IMG/VR virus record: IMGVR_UViG_3300030090_001891
Coordinates: 1-20,712 of that record
Reading direction: 5' to 3' (one strand)
DNA from: a virus
DNA length: 20,712 nucleotides
Part shown: positions 3,417 through 19,694 of the stretch, in pieces
Layout of the letters: every line of letters starts with the position of its first letter
Position numbering within the stretch: the first letter of the stretch is position 1
Made by a program: the position numbers and the translations under genes
Notes under the pieces: generated by a model
Told to the model about the DNA's origin: nothing
Databases searched by the model: none
The model's input: the letters and a program-made list of their open reading frames with translations, nothing else

Positions 3417-5414
3417 TTATTCTACTAGTGGTCGAGGTGATTGTTGTGCAAGCACGTTTCTTATTAGTGGTGGAACACGCCTTGCTGTACGCCTCATGGT
3501 TGGGTTGCCCCTGCTCATCAATCTCAGAGCTTCTTCTTGATTTGCAGGGTCTAGCAACAAGCGTCTTAATTCTGCTGCTACCTCCTCAGATGGTGGACTG
3601 CCGTCAACCAATTCATTTAAAATTCTTGCTATACCCTCAGTAGGATTAGCAAGCATCCCAACTGCTTCACTTACATTATTTGCAGCCTGCTGGTCTGCAA
3701 GCATTGGTGCTGTCCTTGAGCCTTGTGTTGCTCTAGTGCTAGTCATAGCCATCAATTCTTCGTCACGCATTGCTTGTTCAAACAGTGCAAATTGTTCGTC
3801 TGAATCAAAGGCAGTTCGCAGACGGTTGCGTCTAGCTGGACTGTTGAAGATTTTGTTTAGGGCATCTGCCTTGTCGCCTGTTTCTAAAATCTGGTAACGC
3901 AAGGCATCCGCAACACCTACTTTGAAGGCTTCTTTTTGATGGTTGCCGAAATTTGCAAGCATACGTTTGTTAAAAGTTGCTGGACGCAATATAAACTTTC
4001 TACCTTCCTCAGCAGCTTCCTCGGCTGCTGCATGACCAGCGTAAATTGAACGGGCTTGTTTATATACAGAAACACCATCGGCATCAGCGGTTGCACGGTC
4101 AAGATAGTCACGCAGTCTATTACGCAACCCCTTTGCCACATTTGCCTTGGTTGAAGCCCCAGCTTTGTATAATTCGTTTACACGGTCATCTAGGCTTTGT
4201 TTAATATAATCCATTGTCTCTAAGGTGGGTTTTGCAAATACCATACCGCCATCCCTAACCTCAACAGCATCACTCAGATCAACACCGTCATATTCTGCAA
4301 TGTCTTGTGCGCCCGACCAGGCTTCTTGTATTTTTTTATTATTGAGAAAACTTTTAAGTTCGTCAGTCATTTCCAACTTTTGTGCGTAGGCATCACCATA
4401 ATTTTGATTTGCATCAAGTCGTTTTTGTTCTGACGTTATTTCTAAATATTCATCTAAACTCATAGTCGGCAAAAATTTGTCAACCTGTTCTAAAAGACGG
4501 GGTGCTTGTTCTGCTTGGCGTTCCATAAGAAATCTATTTGCAGCTTTGCCACCTTGTGTGGTTGCTGCAAACCGTGCCAAATCACGCATTGCTATTGAAT
4601 ACTGGTCAGCCGTGTCTGGTATACGGGCTTGAGCTGGCATTTTACTTAAAGCTCTACGAATAGCTGGCACTGTGAGTTCGTCATCGTCAAGAGCTGTTCG
4701 CATCATACGTCCAGCCTGTCTAGTCGTTTGACTATCAAGACCAGGCGTAGCACCAACAACCCTGCCAACCCCTCTCCCAACTGCACGAACAGCATCACCT
4801 ATAATTGGAAGACTAACACCTGTTACTGCACCTGTGCCTGCACCTGTGGCTGCACCAATCCCACGGCTTTGTAGTCCACCTAATACATCAATTTTACCTT
4901 CTTCATCCAACCCACCTTCACTTCTCAAGAAACCACTTGTTGCACCAGTTTTTGCACCTGATATTCCACCTTCAAGTATCCGTGGAAGTAAACCAACACC
5001 ACGCCTTGCTAAAGCACGGCCTGTGCCTACTAAGCCTGTAGGAATACCGCCAGCCACTTGCAAAGCTAATGACTTATATGGGCGTGCTCTTTGGTAAAGT
5101 TCATTCTCTGCCCTTACCATGTCAATTTCTTTGCTTACGGTATTGCCTGGCAACAAACCTCGAATAAAACCCTCAAGCTCATCTCCACCGCCCATCAATG
5201 TGCCTTGCCCTATGGCTTGGCGTGCTGTGTTAGCTTCTGTATCGATAAAGGCTTCACGAAATTGAGGGTCTATAAAGATTTGTTCGGCAGTAGTTTTATC
5301 TACATTATATATTGGGTCAGCCAAATAAGCTAAAACGTCCTGTGCTTTACCGCCCATCCGTTTTAATTCTTTTAAATTGGCGATATGTCCATCAATGATT
5401 TCCTGACTAGCCAC
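3417..5414 (-). CDS. Large putative ejection protein with Gly-rich membrane-active region
   Basis: A 665-residue protein beginning at GTG 5414. Residues about 65-92 hold the recurrent phage block ARQAIGQGTLMGGGDELEGF followed by LLPGNT. From about 115 to 222 it is Gly/Ala/Val-rich with repeated amphipathic segments (LALQVAGGIPTGLVGTGRAL, GIGAATGAGTGAVTGV, VGRGVGRVVGATPG), suited to membrane insertion. The remainder is helical and charged, with a VSVYKQARSIYAGHAAAEEA block near 460-480 and FKVGVADALRYQI. From memory, this architecture occurs in large internal proteins of podoviruses, in the role of P22 gp16/gp20 or T7 gp15/gp16. No lysozyme or transglycosylase motif is visible. The stop is 12 nt before the tail-fibre gene. 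Confidence 0.78.
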   Translation of the reverse strand: MASQEIIDGHIANLKELKRMGGKAQDVLAYLADPIYNVDKTTAEQIFIDPQFREAFIDTEANTARQAIGQGTLMGGGDELEGFIRGLLPGNTVSKEIDMVRAENELYQRARPYKSLALQVAGGIPTGLVGTGRALARRGVGLLPRILEGGISGAKTGATSGFLRSEGGLDEEGKIDVLGGLQSRGIGAATGAGTGAVTGVSLPIIGDAVRAVGRGVGRVVGATPGLDSQTTRQAGRMMRTALDDDELTVPAIRRALSKMPAQARIPDTADQYSIAMRDLARFAATTQGGKAANRFLMERQAEQAPRLLEQVDKFLPTMSLDEYLEITSEQKRLDANQNYGDAYAQKLEMTDELKSFLNNKKIQEAWSGAQDIAEYDGVDLSDAVEVRDGGMVFAKPTLETMDYIKQSLDDRVNELYKAGASTKANVAKGLRNRLRDYLDRATADADGVSVYKQARSIYAGHAAAEEAAEEGRKFILRPATFNKRMLANFGNHQKEAFKVGVADALRYQILETGDKADALNKIFNSPARRNRLRTAFDSDEQFALFEQAMRDEELMAMTSTRATQGSRTAPMLADQQAANNVSEAVGMLANPTEGIARILNELVDGSPPSEEVAAELRRLLLDPANQEEALRLMSRGNPTMRRTARRVPPLIRNVLAQQSPRPLVE

Positions 5415-7558: not shown

Positions 7559-8002
7559 TTATATCACCTTTTCCAAATAAATTTTTGTTTTCTTATAATC
7601 GCCTAATACTTTTTCCCAGCCTGGTCGACCTTCCAGACTGACTTTCTGGCAACCTTGCTCTCTTGCCCAGTCCTCAATATTGCCTATGAGGGGTGTGTAC
7701 TTTTTGTGTTCAATCCCAGCACACAGCCAGATCAGACAGGTTGAAGTCTGCGGATGGTCATTAATGACCGTGACGGCAATACCCTCGACAACATTGTCAT
7801 CAGTTGCCAGCCACAACTGCGCTGAACCTCTACGCAGATCCCTAAGCACATCCGTTACTGTGTGAGTGTTGTCATACCCCACAGCCTTGTTAATTAAACG
7901 GATTGTCTCAAAATCCAGACAACTGATTTCAGATGTGCTGACCAGCCATAACTCAGTTTTACTGTTTGTTTTGCTGCCTGTTTCTTCTACAAGTGTCAGC
8001 AT
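7559..8002 (-). CDS. GNAT-fold protein in virion cassette (T7 gp13-like)
   Basis: A 147-residue protein with the layout of the GNAT acyltransferase fold. An N-terminal helix region (ETIRLINKAVG) leads to a strand pair (AQLWLATDDNVVEGIAVTVIND), a third strand (TCLIWLCAGI) and a helix (IGNIEDWAREQGCQKVSLEG). It ends in RPGWEKVLGDYKKTKIYLEKV. A C-x-x-[VI]-x-[LI]-x-[GR]-R-x-G-W ending is typical of phage GNAT-like proteins in podovirus structural operons, among which T7 internal virion protein gp13 is usually counted. The acetyl-CoA loop (R/Q-x-x-G-x-G/A) is not evident, so it may be structural rather than enzymatic. ATG 8002 shares a base with the previous TGA; the TTG one codon upstream is less likely. 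Confidence 0.78.
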   Translation of the reverse strand: MLTLVEETGSKTNSKTELWLVSTSEISCLDFETIRLINKAVGYDNTHTVTDVLRDLRRGSAQLWLATDDNVVEGIAVTVINDHPQTSTCLIWLCAGIEHKKYTPLIGNIEDWAREQGCQKVSLEGRPGWEKVLGDYKKTKIYLEKVI

Positions 8003-8772
8003 CAAACCATACCAAACCCGTCATCTTCACCGAAACCAAATCCAGTATAATCTGAAACATCCGCACCAATATCACTTACAGCATCATCGCCATCTGACAT
8101 TGCATCAGCAATGGCCTGGAATGGGTCGGTGAAAGATGTGTCAACAGTCTCAAATGCACCAATGTTCTCCAAGGATTCAAAATCAGGGAAATAACCAGGT
8201 GTTGCTACACCAAAAACACTGTCGGGCATACCAGCAGCAGCAGCATCTAAACGGTCGCCAATTTTACCGCCAAGTGCTCCCAGACCTATCATGCCTAACG
8301 GCCCTAATGGGATGCCTAGCAAACCGCCAACAAAGTCTCCTGCAATGCCCCTATTTCCTCGGCCTGTTGCCAACCCGCCAAGTACACTGCCAACAGGCCC
8401 GCCATAAGTGCCAAATAAACCAGAACCTATCGTGCTACCTATGCTTGGCCCTAAATTCATGCTACCAAACTGACTGGCAGGGGCATCCATCTCACCATAT
8501 CGGCTAGTGTCCAGATTGACATCACTCATGTCATCTACAGGAACATCCATGTCCGGCCCGCCACTAAGCATTTGCCTTGTGCTGGCTGGCAGACGAAAAT
8601 AATCAGGCTGCTGGACAACCGGCATAACAGGGTCAACGGCTGGGATAGCAGCTGCGGTTGTTCGTTTAAACTGCGGGAAAACAAACTTGTTTCCGTCAAA
8701 ATATCCCTGCGGTTTTCCAGACATATTCAGCGGAAAGACCCGACCAGTCATGTCTTTGTAAGTTGTCGCCAT
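8002..8772 (-). CDS. Putative ejection protein with glycine-zipper segment
   Basis: A 256-residue protein of no family I can name with certainty. The N-terminus is beta-like (YKDMTGRVFPLNMSGKPQGY). A Pro/Asp-rich linker follows. Residues about 107-172 form a Gly/Ala/Leu-rich stretch (LGPSIGSTIGSGLFGTYGG ... GGLLGIPLGPLGMIGLGALGG) of the glycine-zipper kind that can insert into membranes. The C-terminal quarter is very acidic. It sits at the head of the internal-protein block, where P22 and T7 encode proteins ejected ahead of the DNA, so a channel-forming ejection protein is the best guess. AGGATAAAA precedes ATG 8772. Its TGA overlaps the ATG of the GNAT-like gene (TGATG). Confidence 0.75.
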   Translation of the reverse strand: MATTYKDMTGRVFPLNMSGKPQGYFDGNKFVFPQFKRTTAAAIPAVDPVMPVVQQPDYFRLPASTRQMLSGGPDMDVPVDDMSDVNLDTSRYGEMDAPASQFGSMNLGPSIGSTIGSGLFGTYGGPVGSVLGGLATGRGNRGIAGDFVGGLLGIPLGPLGMIGLGALGGKIGDRLDAAAAGMPDSVFGVATPGYFPDFESLENIGAFETVDTSFTDPFQAIADAMSDGDDAVSDIGADVSDYTGFGFGEDDGFGMV

Positions 8773-13995: not shown

Positions 13996-15939
13996 CTATA
14001 TAATTGAGTTGGGTTGAAATTCCTCCATGAGAGGTGCAGTTGATCCTTCTTTCTGTGCCTTGCTGATGGCTTCCATGCGATCCGTCTCAGCACGGTATTT
14101 GTCTGTCACTACTTTCTGGGCATCCAGAGCAATCTTGTTGGCATCAATCTGGTTTTTCTGGACACGCACATTCTGGTCAGCCTGCAGCTGCTGGATGACT
14201 GCAACAGCTTCTTGAAGCTGTGCCTTCATCTGCTCTTTCTCAGGGTCAATGCCTTTGAGCGCAGATGGCAGCAATTTCTGCAACCTCTCTCCCATTTCTT
14301 CAGCACCAGGCCAGTCAAGGTTTTTGGCAATCAGATCACCTATAATCGGTGCAGCCTGCGGGAACTGCTGCACCAACAGCATCATCTGGTCGGCAGCTTC
14401 CTGACGCTGCGTGGTAAAGCTCGGCCCCAGTTTGACCGACACATCATATTTACCCGTGGTCAGGTCATATATGCGTGGCTCAGGCTCACCCTCAATCTGG
14501 GTCATCTGATTAATCATTGCCGTCTGTGGTGCATCGTCCTCACCCATAATACGCAGCACCCTTGCCTCGGTGTAAACGCTTGGCACAAGATCAACAATAA
14601 TCCGGCCGGCATGGCGTATGGCTCGGCTGAGGTTATCAATAAAGTGATATGTGCCAATGTCGTTTTCTTTCTGCCTTGCAGCTATGCCCTTGCCACTAAT
14701 TTCTTTTTCCATGTTGCCAAGGCTAGTCATGCCAATGACTGATTTCATGTCATCAGATGAGTTAAGGGCTTCTTGAATCGCACCAGCTGGCACGCCAGCA
14801 AAGGGTTGGCGAATAGGTGCCTGACCGCCATCATATTCTAAAAATGCGTGATTGGTTGAATTAGCGGTGCTCCACTTAGCCTGATCCGTGTTGAACGCTC
14901 CAACTGGCCCGATCCAAGGTGCTTTCGGAGCCAGTGCCACCAGTTCGGCAGCAGCCGTTCTCCAGAAATTATACATTTGCTGTGAGTCTTTTGCGAAGTG
15001 TATGAGACTGTGAAAGTGCCGGTTTTCACCAACAACAACTTCCTCGCCATAGACAGGCACAATAGGAATATAACGCCCTGACCAGTCTATCTCGCTGAGT
15101 ATCTCACTACCCGTAACAACACACTGTTTAACCTTCATGGTCTTTGTCGTGCGTGACTGCACAGGCAGAATACCAGACATTTCCATCAAATCACGCTGGG
15201 TCTCAAACACTTCAGCATCGAGTATCTGCCCGTCCGTCATCAGGATGATTTCACGGTCTACTTCTTCACGGCTCCAGTATTCAGCCACCCGTACCGTGTC
15301 AGATGTGTACCAGAGGTTGTCCCGCTGCTCAAAGCTCTGGCTTTCAAAGTTGATTTTTTCAGCATCAGGATAGCTGGCTTCAAACTCATCATGGGTCAGA
15401 AGCTCGGTGACAAAACACATGTTCCAGTCCGAGCTGTCCACAGCCGTAGAGCGTGGATCACGATAGACTGAAAACGGATTCATAATGCGCTCAATCTTGA
15501 TGTCACGCTCAAATGTGTCATCCCGTGCAAAATCTATGTCTACACGGAAATAACCAAATCCCATACTCACCGCATCATCAATGGCTTTGCTGTACGCAGC
15601 ATCAGCCGAGCTGCTGACTTCGATCTGCCTGAGCAAACCGTTTAATATCTTTGCTGTTTCAACGTCTGCATTACTGTCTACTGGGTGACATTTGATGCTG
15701 GGCTTGTTCATTCGGGCATCATTGACAATCTGGCGTATAAAGGTCGGCATACGATTGACTGTCAGGCACGGCCTGCGGTCACGTTCACGCTGTCGCTTTA
15801 CTTCTTCGGGCCATTGCACGCCCTGCCTGCCAAACTCAAGATCGTCCATCGCCTGTATGCGATTTTCGGCCTCAGCTTCCTCGCACACCTTGAAGGCTTC
15901 ACGAATGTCTGCAAGTTTATCGTCTGAATAAGATGCCAT
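13996..15939 (-). CDS. Portal protein (P22 gp1-like)
   Basis: The dodecameric ring at the capsid vertex through which DNA is packaged and ejected. It has 647 residues against about 725 in P22. The N-terminal region has the typical features FGRQGVQWPEEVKRQRERD, RPCLTVNRMPTFIRQIVND and the Y/F-R-V stretch of the core. Then comes an FSVYRDPRSTAVDSSDWNMC block, which in this family reads N-P-x-x-V-x-x-D-P. The C-terminal part (about 550-635) is Gln/Lys-rich helical, like the portal barrel. The start ATG shares its A with the TAA of the preceding polyvalent gene. The stop TAG is 9 nt before the scaffold start, and the order portal-scaffold-coat supports the call. Confidence 0.93.
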   Translation of the reverse strand: MASYSDDKLADIREAFKVCEEAEAENRIQAMDDLEFGRQGVQWPEEVKRQRERDRRPCLTVNRMPTFIRQIVNDARMNKPSIKCHPVDSNADVETAKILNGLLRQIEVSSSADAAYSKAIDDAVSMGFGYFRVDIDFARDDTFERDIKIERIMNPFSVYRDPRSTAVDSSDWNMCFVTELLTHDEFEASYPDAEKINFESQSFEQRDNLWYTSDTVRVAEYWSREEVDREIILMTDGQILDAEVFETQRDLMEMSGILPVQSRTTKTMKVKQCVVTGSEILSEIDWSGRYIPIVPVYGEEVVVGENRHFHSLIHFAKDSQQMYNFWRTAAAELVALAPKAPWIGPVGAFNTDQAKWSTANSTNHAFLEYDGGQAPIRQPFAGVPAGAIQEALNSSDDMKSVIGMTSLGNMEKEISGKGIAARQKENDIGTYHFIDNLSRAIRHAGRIIVDLVPSVYTEARVLRIMGEDDAPQTAMINQMTQIEGEPEPRIYDLTTGKYDVSVKLGPSFTTQRQEAADQMMLLVQQFPQAAPIIGDLIAKNLDWPGAEEMGERLQKLLPSALKGIDPEKEQMKAQLQEAVAVIQQLQADQNVRVQKNQIDANKIALDAQKVVTDKYRAETDRMEAISKAQKEGSTAPLMEEFQPNSII

Positions 15940-18182
15940 TAAATAAATCCATCTGGTGTTGTCGCAGTGTAAAGTGTGCCACCAAGCAGGCCACGCACAG
16001 GAAAGCCTTTTGGCATTTGTTCATCGTCATTTTGTGATAATAATCCAGCAGCAATTTTGCCTTCTGCTCCTGTCTGGCCAAGCATTACACCTTTGCTGAT
16101 GCCAGCCTTCATCTCTGGTGTGATCTTCATTGACCAGACTGTTTCAGCAAGGGCCGCCTCTGCCTCGGCTTCTGTCTTCCAGCTTCGTGAAGTATCCATC
16201 ATGCCGTTTTTATCATAGTGATAATATCTAAGGTCTAAGGCTGATTGTCCTACATCACCATCCTGAGTTGTTTTAAGGGTGCTTTTTTGCGCTTTTGCAC
16301 CATACTTCTTGCCAAACTTGTTAGCGGATTTGACCAGCATCTTGTCGTAAAATTCTTCCATGCCTTCACCACCAACTTGAAGATCAACACCTGAGTAATC
16401 ACGACCATCTGGATATTTGCCAGTTGCAGCGTCTTTAGTTGCTTTATCGGCTAAATCTTTTCCAATTAAATCGGGCAATTTATCTTCTGTTACGACTTCC
16501 TCAAGTCCGACAGCAGAGCCGTTTTTCTCGCCTGTAACGTAATACTGTCCTGCCTTATCGCCATCTCTCAGTTTTTCAACTCGAATTGTGTCAACTTGCT
16601 TACTCAAATCATATCGCTCTGCCTGTACCTTGCCAGGTGTCCACGCTATGCGGTCATGCCCACTATCAACAGCTTCTTTAATCATGCGCTGTAATGTCAG
16701 CCCAGCCCATTTATCTGTGCGTTTGTATGGTGCTTCTGGGACGCCAGAGCCAAGACGCATCGCCTCATCTTTCAGAACGGACAACTCGTCTTGGGCGGCT
16801 AGGTATTTGTCATACAACAAACTTTCTTGTGCAGTATGGCCCGGTAAATCATCAATAGTATTAATCTTGGTGACATCGTAGTCAGGCATTGCAGCGTCTC
16901 TTTCAGCGTTAATGCTTAATATTTCTTGCTCTTTAGCACGTATCTTTGCCGCAACATCTGACCCGTCCTGTCGATACCCAACATCACGCCCCATCTGATG
17001 CCAGTCGCTTTGTATCTCTTCAATAAACAGCGTCTTGTCACCATCAATGTTGCGTGTGTTGTATCGTGCATGGGCTAGGACATTGGGTTCGTTAAAGTGG
17101 GAGCCGCGAAAAGTAAGCTCAGTGCCTTCTGATTTTGGTCTTGATGGAATAGCGTTATATTTTCGAGCAATATCACGCACGGCTTTCATGTCAGATGGGG
17201 AAAAGCCTGTAAGCTCTATAACTTCGTTTCCATCCTCACGGGTTACACGGCCATAATCAAGGTTCTCCATACCTCTTGCAGACATCTCTCCTAAAATGTC
17301 ATCGGCTTGATTTGCTGATACAACTATTTCTGCATTGATTTTTATTGGATTTTTAACAGGCAACGTCAGCAGCATCTCTCTGTAATTTTCACCGCCTGGT
17401 AGCTGTTTATCTTCGAATTTTGTTCTCCCTACAATATTCTCAGCTTCATTAGCCCGAATACGAGACAACATCTGCTCTGCTCTTTCTTCACGCAATGATG
17501 GTGGCATATTTGCATAATCACCCTCGCCAGCAACCATCATTTCATATCTTCTTTTGTTATAGTCAGGTGTCTGTGCGCCCTCTACCAACTTCACATCCTG
17601 TATATCAAGCGGATTAGCCCTTGCCTGATTAAGCAAGCCTGTCTTGGTTACATCGCCACCTTGTGCCAGCAAGCCAGGGATACCAGAATACTCAAGCTCA
17701 TCAGCACCAACAGGCTGTTTGCTTAACCATCCGCTAAACTGCTCTGCGCTCATTTTTTCCTGTGGCATATTTTCCAGCGTAGGTATTAAACGTGACGCAT
17801 ACGCACTGCCAACCTTGGGGACTGCACCTGTCGCTGCACCCAGAAAACCAAGCCCTGCCTTACCACCCAGACCCGTACCACCTGGCATCATCAATGACAT
17901 CATCTGCAAAGAGTCAGGCACTTTATTTCCCTGTGCATCAAAACCAGAGATTATTGCCTCCATATCCGCAGCCAATGGACCAAAAGATCGCTCCATATAA
18001 GTCGTGTCTGGATCAAGCGTGTAGGTAAACGCATCCAGTATGCCCCTGCCAAAGTCTGCAAATGGTGTGCTCTCAGGCACAGGGTACGCAGACGGAAAGC
18101 CCGTATTGTTTCTGCGTTGCTGTACTGGCAGCAGCCCCATCGGGCTTTGATAAGTACCAGTCCTATTATCAAGTAATCCCAT
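15939..18182 (-). CDS. Polyvalent-type (PLxRFG-protein-like) phage protein
   Basis: A 747-residue protein between terminase and portal. It carries ordered blocks that I know from giant phage and mobile-element polyvalent proteins. They are MSAEQFSGWL (144-153), HFNEPNVLAHAR (362-373), LFIEEIQSDWHQMG (385-398), APYKRTDKWAGLTLQRMI (484-501), DRIAWTPGKVQAERYDLSKQ (510-529), GGEGMEEFYDKML (604-616) and the C-terminal SMKITPEMKAGISKG (684-698). In those giant proteins this region is one module among many and has no established activity. Here it is nearly the whole protein, preceded by a Gly/Met-rich N-terminus (about 85-125). Conserved E388/E389, D393, W394 and H395 could be catalytic; that is inference. 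Such proteins are thought to be packaged and injected. It starts 9 nt after terL and its TAA overlaps the portal ATG (TAATG), so it is expressed with head genes. Confidence 0.8.
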   Translation of the reverse strand: MGLLDNRTGTYQSPMGLLPVQQRRNNTGFPSAYPVPESTPFADFGRGILDAFTYTLDPDTTYMERSFGPLAADMEAIISGFDAQGNKVPDSLQMMSLMMPGGTGLGGKAGLGFLGAATGAVPKVGSAYASRLIPTLENMPQEKMSAEQFSGWLSKQPVGADELEYSGIPGLLAQGGDVTKTGLLNQARANPLDIQDVKLVEGAQTPDYNKRRYEMMVAGEGDYANMPPSLREERAEQMLSRIRANEAENIVGRTKFEDKQLPGGENYREMLLTLPVKNPIKINAEIVVSANQADDILGEMSARGMENLDYGRVTREDGNEVIELTGFSPSDMKAVRDIARKYNAIPSRPKSEGTELTFRGSHFNEPNVLAHARYNTRNIDGDKTLFIEEIQSDWHQMGRDVGYRQDGSDVAAKIRAKEQEILSINAERDAAMPDYDVTKINTIDDLPGHTAQESLLYDKYLAAQDELSVLKDEAMRLGSGVPEAPYKRTDKWAGLTLQRMIKEAVDSGHDRIAWTPGKVQAERYDLSKQVDTIRVEKLRDGDKAGQYYVTGEKNGSAVGLEEVVTEDKLPDLIGKDLADKATKDAATGKYPDGRDYSGVDLQVGGEGMEEFYDKMLVKSANKFGKKYGAKAQKSTLKTTQDGDVGQSALDLRYYHYDKNGMMDTSRSWKTEAEAEAALAETVWSMKITPEMKAGISKGVMLGQTGAEGKIAAGLLSQNDDEQMPKGFPVRGLLGGTLYTATTPDGFI

Positions 18183-18191
18183 TTAAACCCA

Positions 18192-19511
18192 TTATCCCAT
18201 CCAGCTGCCAGCAGACGAATTAGGTCTGGCATAGTTGACCTCTGCCTGTGGTACAGACTGCCGGATTGATGTTGCCAATGTCCTCATGGCAGCCTCGGCA
18301 TGACTGCTCCAGTCATGGGCAGGCCGTGATCTGAATATCTGGTTTTTCGGATCATAAACACGATGATAGAAACGCATACTTTCAAGCAGTCTTGAACATC
18401 GGTCACGGTCAATAAAACATCTGGGGAGGGTCATCTTGACCGCATTGATCCCTTCCTCCAGAGGCAGCTTGGGGGCAGCTTTGAAATTAATGCCTAGACC
18501 CAGAGCCGTTTCCTGCCTGGTCTTTCCCGTTCCCATTTCCCTGACATTGATATCATGCGGTGCATGATGGGCAGAGTAAGACCAGCCATGCTGCTGTGCC
18601 TTCTGATCCAGCAGGTCTGCATAGTAAGGCAGACCCTCACCGCTCATCTCTACATAATCAATAATATTAATCGACCTGTTGCCATGCGCTGTCTGTGCAA
18701 AAACAATAGCCGTACTGTCGTTAATCCCTAAATCCCAGAAGCTCTGAACCTTCAAAGCCGGATCAAACGGTATACGGCCAATCTGGTCGTTTTCCTCCAT
18801 GCTTTGCAGTTCCTTGGCATAGACCGCACCTGGTACATTGCTCTCAAAACTGCATTCCATCTCAGCTTCGTAAATGCCCTGCGGCATCATACTCTTGGCT
18901 GCCTGCAATTCACTATCCGGCAAAATGCCCGTTTCCGATGCCTTATACACAGCACAATGCCAGGCATCATCCTCCTTCGCCCTGACATACAAATCATAAA
19001 GCGCATTATGACCCATTGGCGTGCCGACAAAAATACAGCCCGTTTTCTCGCCATTCAGCCCATTTCTGTCAGCAAGGGCGGGCCGGACAATCTCAGGAAA
19101 AATAGTGTCGTGCATCAAACCAGCTTCATCAATAACAAAGAAGTCACTCATAATGCCACGAATGTTCTGACCGCCATTCTCACCACTAAGCAGCGTAATA
19201 CGGGCCCCATTAGGATAGTCTGCACGTAGCTCGGATTCATTAAACTTAACATTAGGTATCTTGGCAGAAAACTGCTTCAGATAGTCCCACAGGGTACTTT
19301 TAGCCTGCCGATAGGTCGGACACAGCATATGAAAGCGGGGGTTGGGCTTATTGCTGGTCAAAGCCATACGCAGCAGATGGTTAATAGCGCAGACCGATTT
19401 GCCGAAACGTCTGTGAGTTATGGCTACGCTAAACCTATGCTCAGACCACGCACGGTGCAGCTCACGCTGGAGAGCACGGGGGGCATACGGAATTTCGATA
19501 GTTTGTGGCAA
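18192..19511 (-). CDS. terL: Terminase large subunit (ATPase and nuclease)
   Basis: The DNA-packaging motor and headful/cos nuclease. With the TTG start at 19511 it has 439 residues. An AGGA (19518-19521) lies 6 nt upstream, and the protein then begins right at the conserved PYAPRALQRELHRAW block. A GTG at 19601 would add 30 residues that look unlike the family. Using numbering from that GTG, visible motifs are: adenine-binding QRELHRAW near 45-52, Walker A HRRFGKS (63-69), Walker B FFVIDEA (154-160) and motif III GTPMG (193-197). RNase H-like nuclease acidic residues are FWDLGINDS (Asp290), IIDYVEMSGEG (about 313-323) and HDWSSHAEAAMR (Asp430). Length and motifs fit complete terminases of environmental podoviruses. 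It ends 9 nt before the next gene. Confidence 0.96.
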   Translation of the reverse strand: MPQTIEIPYAPRALQRELHRAWSEHRFSVAITHRRFGKSVCAINHLLRMALTSNKPNPRFHMLCPTYRQAKSTLWDYLKQFSAKIPNVKFNESELRADYPNGARITLLSGENGGQNIRGIMSDFFVIDEAGLMHDTIFPEIVRPALADRNGLNGEKTGCIFVGTPMGHNALYDLYVRAKEDDAWHCAVYKASETGILPDSELQAAKSMMPQGIYEAEMECSFESNVPGAVYAKELQSMEENDQIGRIPFDPALKVQSFWDLGINDSTAIVFAQTAHGNRSINIIDYVEMSGEGLPYYADLLDQKAQQHGWSYSAHHAPHDINVREMGTGKTRQETALGLGINFKAAPKLPLEEGINAVKMTLPRCFIDRDRCSRLLESMRFYHRVYDPKNQIFRSRPAHDWSSHAEAAMRTLATSIRQSVPQAEVNYARPNSSAGSWMG

Positions 19512-19580
19512 AATTAATCCTATCTGTCGCTCAGATTGCGCTGAGTGCTCTGTAACCCGCAGAAACAAGCCATTGACCGT

Positions 19581-19595
19581 CAGGTAAAATACCTG
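19581..19595. promoter_or_regulatory. Perfect palindrome CAGGTA-AAA-TACCTG upstream of terL
   Basis: A perfect inverted repeat with 6-bp arms and a 3-bp centre lies between the upstream GTG candidate start of the large terminase (19601) and its better TTG start (19511). If TTG is the true start, this is an untranslated leader element. It could be a dimeric repressor operator, part of a terminase recognition or cleavage site, or a small RNA hairpin. It lacks a following U-run, so it does not look like a terminator. A second, weaker inverted repeat (CTCAG-N6-CTGAG, 19530-19545) lies between it and the TTG start. The structure is directly visible; its role is unknown. Confidence 0.45.
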
Positions 19596-19694
19596 ATGCA
19601 CCTATTTCCAACTGTCTCAGATTTGCACTATTTTATGCTCTCGTGCGTATCTGTGCGCTGGCAATAGACCGATTTCGCTAAAACCCATGCTCTC

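Follow-up and report, generated by a model that had tools for sequence, protein, structure and literature searches.

What kind of protein is encoded between the terminase large subunit (TerL) and the portal in the virus record IMGVR_UViG_3300030090_001891, and why does its gene differ so strongly from those of its nearest relatives? The record is linear and was analysed over its whole length of 20,712 bases (hereafter the window). The open reading frame (ORF) of 747 amino acids (aa) was confirmed to be intact, with an ATG start. A first-pass annotation, made from the sequence alone, had described its product as a nearly bare polyvalent-type module. This interpretation is partly supported overall, and the cassette reassortment and the predicted GNAT fold described below were absent from it. 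Relatives were gathered by profile searches of raw DNA and are given locus numbers (L001 and so on) where they have to be told apart. Compared with them, the window gene consists of six conserved blocks (B0 to B5) that alternate with five slots (S1 to S5) holding exchangeable cassettes (Table 1).

Reassortment of cassettes between conserved blocks

Between relatives, the DNA of the six blocks is generally about 90-97% identical. The window gene shares its blocks with L001 and L002, the relatives nearest to it, at about 80-98% DNA identity, and the segments between the blocks are unrelated in sequence and length. In the comparison with L001, the blocks are 90-98% identical at the DNA level and S1-S5 are at 0.15-0.50, the level of random pairs. 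At the fourfold degenerate sites of the blocks, 53 of 57 are identical. The two genes are therefore recent relatives, and neutral drift cannot have erased the intervening segments. TerL and the terminase small subunit (TerS) are unrelated between the two loci, and the portals are 52% identical. A further locus, L345, aligns without a break to L001 through S1 (909 nt, 90%), to L002 through S2 (459 nt, 94%) and to the tail of the window gene (202 nt, 91%); its S3, S4 and S5 are its own. This settles cassette reassortment in the clade of the window gene. The S1 of the window gene is also 69-70% identical in amino acid sequence to that of the distant L012 and L249, and is unrelated to the S1 of its nearest relative L001.

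Two copies found in one metagenome-assembled genome (L133 and L143) are 87-88% identical over 16 kb with a single break, which falls precisely at S3, between QSDWHQ..GY and VPDAP. L050 and L078 differ inside the module at S3 and S5 only, and L031 and L071 share S3 and S5 with S1, S2 and S4 replaced. Slot identities were bimodal among 356 close pairs. Replacement islands numbered 3.25 per aligned kb in the module versus 0.34 in the flanks for the 133 pairs whose aligned flanks reach 1.5 kb or more. Clustering of the slots into alleles revealed eight four-gamete quartets, and the same S3 cassette (86-90% DNA identity) was found in genes whose blocks are just 60% identical. Cassettes also matched across slots in 95 pairs versus 0-1 in shuffled controls (e.g. 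S1 of L260 with S3 of L278, 66%), although one of the 95 (S2 of L133 with S1 of L143) is a slot-boundary error to be ignored. By blastp at 1e-4, no cassette was detected outside the module in the loci retrieved. A frameshift origin of the variable segments was rejected, since DNA alignment gave no similarity in any register and the lengths differ. Taken together, these results show that cassettes are reassorted independently slot by slot and that they change slots. No close phage pairs were found among isolate genomes. The module genes of Achromobacter isolate plasmids are mutually close and diverge evenly, with no replaced segments and without large S1 and S3 cassettes.

S3 is the slot replaced most often, and S4 is often replaced or extended by an added cassette. 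Block lengths are nearly constant, whereas the slots span 3-164 aa (S2), 2-125 aa (S3) and 0-58 aa (S5), so that the cassettes are dispensable for the fold. The window gene, with cassettes in five slots, is not the nearly bare module that had been supposed; the barest forms are L137 (S3 of 2 aa) and the Achromobacter plasmid genes.

Closest in kind are restriction specificity genes with moving recognition domains and the general class of segmentally variable genes. The HsdS specificity genes of Type I restriction systems show shuffling of recognition domains and domain movement (DOMO; Furuta et al. 2011, PMC3077401). There, as in the module, conserved blocks flank exchangeable segments that recombine and change position in the gene, and the 95 cross-slot pairs place the same segments at different gene positions, as in DOMO. 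However, the module has five slots rather than two, its cassettes are shorter, its blocks are not evident repeats of each other, and its core, found in phages, has a predicted GNAT fold. Segmentally variable genes (Zheng, Roberts and Kasif 2004, PMC387263) alternate conserved and highly variable regions, the latter suggested to serve binding, and the module alternates in the same way. That class is defined by variability, whereas the module shows discrete slot alleles and their reassortment.

Predicted fold and candidate active site

All the motif blocks named in the first-pass annotation are present and are conserved far beyond chance among 117 aligned relatives, in which E269, H362, R373, E389, Q391, S392, P485, G517, R523, G574 and Y612 (window numbering) are invariant. 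The E-E..QSDW cluster, which it had put forward as a possible active site, is indeed conserved, with E389 kept in 259 of 259 relatives and E388 in 251. In one relative (L057:5964-9203), an intein with Hint and LAGLIDADG matches is inserted between PGG and NYRE in B1, the most conserved motif of the module.

Most of the core was modelled with confidence for the window protein. A structure search with this model mainly gave PII/ferredoxin matches (Z about 9.6 to GlnB/GlnK over 70 aa). PII/ferredoxin was rejected as the core fold because these matches come from the S2 cassette. Since this insert dominated the search, the naturally compact relative L137 was modelled instead (predicted local distance difference test, pLDDT, 92.4; predicted template modelling score, pTM, 0.87). 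In a VIA structural alignment of the L137 model, the 50 top rows were all GNAT-fold proteins (Z 8.2-10.8). They span many unrelated families, including AtaT, TacT, KacT, NatD, GCN5, Elp3, LasI and, as the best match (Z 10.8 over 133 aa), the GNAT-like domain of ICL2. The comparison with enzyme folds that had been proposed for the window protein thus gave a GNAT fold with the L137 model and, with the window model, the matches of the S2 insert. A GNAT fold of the module core is well supported by this modelling.

The general base of Gcn5, a catalytic Glu, lies on strand 4. From the order of elements, the conserved EEIQSDW strand of the module would correspond to strand 4, and its Glu to the Gcn5 base. 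The predicted core thus resembles the GNAT superfamily (Gcn5, NatD, the AtaT/TacT toxins and the ICL2 C-terminal domain) in its fold and in a conserved Glu on the putative strand 4. It differs from that superfamily by a large insertion between late strands, as well as in its sequence and acetyl-CoA loop, which are weighed below. An ADP-ribosyltransferase was considered from the H..R..E residues; none was among the fold matches listed, which does not by itself rule it out.

Module family and gene neighbourhood

The 747-aa protein had no match in Pfam, NCBIfam, PADLOC or PDB sequences. A Pfam search for large-polyvalent-protein domains (LPD), proposed as a check of the first reading, returned nothing at E up to 1 for this protein, nor did Pfam for 10 stand-alone relatives, and none of the LPD or GNAT models in the Pfam version used matched the module. 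The sole PHROGs match was phrog_7348 (E 6e-13), in the middle of a giant profile of 2564 residues; no head-maturation or portal-accessory family was matched. The “endolysin” label of phrog_7348 was not transferred, since it must come from other domains of that giant. The library searches recognised no second effector domain, so the protein is a solo module with cassettes. A search of the available literature found no description of the module or of its cassette exchange.

At least 556 module relatives were found in IMG/VR and at least 111 in contigs of bacterial and archaeal genomes. Such solo forms are not unusual, contrary to the initial impression: among 205 complete module ORFs, 114 are of 950 aa or less and 60 are longer than 1500 aa. 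ART-PolyVal, GP88, LPD22, LPD23, LPD38, N6-methylase (N6_Mtase) and SNF2-helicase domains occur in the giants, which are true polyvalent proteins. The module is thus a homologous region in multidomain proteins with disparate effector domains, i.e. a polyvalent module. The description as a polyvalent-type protein holds for the homology to the module of the giants, but not for the architecture of the window protein itself, which has one module only. A single ORF of more than 4500 aa (L049:3-13616) holds two tandem module copies, and a Pseudomonas aeruginosa plasmid (L342:1-12260) encodes an LPD23 protein of roughly 5000 aa that contains the module. The available part of a survey of polyvalent proteins (Iyer et al. 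2017, PMC5512222) describes 40 uncharacterised LPD domains, and the two GNAT families it reports are RimI-like. The module resembles the proteins covered there in lying inside such proteins, in genes near virion genes and in having solo forms, and differs in lacking a match to the Pfam LPD and GNAT models tried. That part of the survey does not describe the fold or the cassette exchange of the module.

TerL lies upstream and the portal downstream of the window gene, all on the minus strand. Nine bases separate the TerL stop from its start, and its TAA stop overlaps the portal ATG by one common base (TAATG, 15941-15937). The statement that nothing normally separates TerL from the portal does not hold for this family, whose members repeatedly occupy the place between or beside them. 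Stand-alone module genes mostly adjoin TerS, TerL or the portal in varying orders: TerL-module-portal (the window and L053), portal-module (L037 and L043) and module-TerS-TerL (L001 and L031). The position shifts even among close relatives, from before TerS in L001 to after the adaptor in L002. In T7-like phages the module gene comes after those for the tail tube and internal proteins. One cultured example is the Pelagibacter phage HTVC028P, whose module carrier is gp34, beside a putative internal virion protein; its likeness to T7 internal virion (ejection) proteins is one of gene position. The place noted in the first-pass annotation is thus one of a few that recur, and each of them is compatible with a virion protein. 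From this neighbourhood, packaging in the virion may be expected.

Other window genes encode a P22-like coat, a scaffold, an SU10-type adaptor and ejection-protein-like proteins. The reading of the module gene as lying among head or ejection genes is supported. Pfam gave no match for a 148-aa ORF (7559-8005) that adjoins the ejection-protein-like genes and, judged by eye, resembles a small GNAT; in HTVC028P, a “putative acetyltransferase” occupies a similar place. There is a hint of a functional link between the module gene and a 665-aa protein (3417-5414; phrog_5880), whose relatives in L032, L035 and L038 lie immediately upstream of giant module genes. On Achromobacter megaplasmids (L339:5917-7656, L338, L340 and L341), compact stand-alone modules of 575-580 aa, in which S1 and S3 are short, adjoin ParA/ParB and replication genes. 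The Achromobacter module has a C-terminal HEAFH motif that looks like a zincin metallopeptidase.

Table 1 Blocks, slots and neighbours of the module gene in the window. Slot boundaries are approximate by a few residues.
Feature	Position	Strand	Basis
Whole gene: stand-alone polyvalent module with cassette slots, predicted GNAT fold, 747 aa	15939..18182	-	alignment and models
N-terminal linker, aa 1-129	17796..18182	-	mostly low confidence in model
Block B0, aa 130-200, small helical domain ending in predicted strand 1, SRLIPTLENMPQ..DIQDV	17583..17795	-	alignment, model
Slot S1 cassette, aa 201-258, between predicted strands 1 and 2	17409..17582	-	DNA/protein comparison
Block B1, aa 259-276, PGGENYREMLLTLP	17355..17408	-	alignment
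Slot S2 cassette, aa 277-357, modelled ferredoxin/PII-like mini-domain (aa 280-354)	17112..17354	-	model
Block B2, aa 358-403, SHFNEPNVLAHAR...FIEEIQSDWHQMGRDVGY, predicted strands 3 and 4	16974..17111	-	alignment, model
Slot S3 cassette, aa 404-479, modelled helical hairpin	16746..16973	-	model, comparison
Block B3, aa 480-535, VPEAPYKRTDKWAGLTLQRMI..RIAWTPGKVQAERYDLSKQ, predicted helix 3 to helix 4	16578..16745	-	alignment, model
Slot S4, aa 536-600, partly core (IGK motif)	16383..16577	-	comparison
Block B4, aa 601-639, LQVGGEGMEEFYDKMLVKSANKFGKKYGAK	16266..16382	-	alignment
Slot S5 cassette, aa 640-679	16146..16265	-	comparison
Block B5, aa 680-697, VWSMKITPEMKAGI	16092..16145	-	alignment
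Terminase large subunit (TerL)	18192..19601	-	Terminase_6N, phrog_2
P22-type portal protein	13996..15939	-	P22_portal, E 2.6e-189
TAATG, module-gene stop and portal start with one common base	15937..15941	-	sequence

Alternative explanations and proposed role

We consider a virion-carried GNAT-fold effector with recombining cassettes to be the best reading, and on the whole a probable one. Several observations weigh against it. Most close pairs come from metagenome assemblies, and plasmid-borne versions of the module have no virion genes nearby. Sequence-profile searches matched neither a GNAT family nor a solved structure, and Foldseek, which ranked largely the same GNAT proteins on top, gave weak E-values near 6e-3. 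The canonical acetyl-CoA motif R/QxxGxG/A is present in just 49 of 259 relatives, and RxxG by itself in 229; the window protein departs from it with R399-x-x-G402-Y, and the loop is interrupted by S3. Therefore, CoA binding may be lost or altered. Since E388 and E389 are conserved yet the canonical loop is mostly missing, acetyl transfer by the module is just plausible, while the fold stays well supported. The core could instead be a non-transferase, i.e. a scaffold, either structural or for ligand binding, on which a protein that is injected or belongs to the virion presents exchangeable binding cassettes. Such a scaffold role has been proposed for the GNAT-like domain of mycobacterial ICL2, the best structural match, and it would suit a module whose CoA loop has become a cassette slot. 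We hold this explanation to be rather unlikely, because the strictly invariant polar residues E269, H362, R373, E389, Q391, S392, R523 and Y612 look like an active site and the L057 intein sits in one such invariant motif.

An ordinary head-maturation or portal-accessory protein, expressed with the head and acting on it, would fit the position between TerL and portal, the one-base overlap with the portal and the many relatives that adjoin TerS, TerL or the portal. It is improbable given that the family also occurs in the tail and internal-protein cluster of T7-like phages, on plasmids away from virion genes and inside giant effector proteins, and that its position moves between close relatives. 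As for the mosaic itself, metagenome assembly might have joined fragments of different variants at the conserved blocks, where such joins happen, most members being metagenome contigs. This is very unlikely, since the blocks are 3-10% apart and thus too divergent for assembly joins; moreover, each four-gamete quartet brings together genes from different metagenomes, and the 16-kb flanks of L133 and L143 are consistently 12% divergent on both sides of the single replaced segment. Least credible are unconstrained loops drifting by mutation and indels without cassette exchange. The variable segments do lie between conserved motifs and vary in length, but drift is already contradicted by pairs more than 90% identical at block fourfold sites, in which some segments are at random identity and others at 95-100%, by identical segments recurring in different combinations, and by homology across slots.

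If the module is a virion-carried effector, the GNAT-fold protein would most likely be assembled into the virion and delivered with the DNA. Early in infection, it may acyl-modify a host target or bind it through a pocket of the acyl-CoA type. The near-invariant motif blocks would form the core of the fold; the exchangeable cassettes in the five slots are about 5-160 residues long. Homologous recombination between near-identical conserved blocks of 50-160 bp, in co-infecting phages or prophages resident in the same cell, would swap cassettes singly, at times into a different slot, and give the same core new surface segments. The cassettes probably determine the partner or target, or conceal the protein from the defences of the host. 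We only infer catalysis, the target and what selects for cassette diversity. That the protein is a combinatorial injected GNAT-fold enzyme, its slots filled from a common pool of small slot-changing cassettes, is a possibility that we advance tentatively.

If so, phage populations would continually yield new target or evasion specificities, in a viral counterpart of the domain shuffling of restriction specificity genes. The gene suggests an injected protein that is re-targeted at high speed, and slot-wise exchange may mark where arms-race selection acts. Sets of natural variants differing in a single cassette would be suited to finding host partners. The module is widespread and had no curated domain model or fold before among the libraries tried. 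With a predicted fold and candidate catalytic residues, this common dark part of phage polyvalent proteins becomes open to testing.

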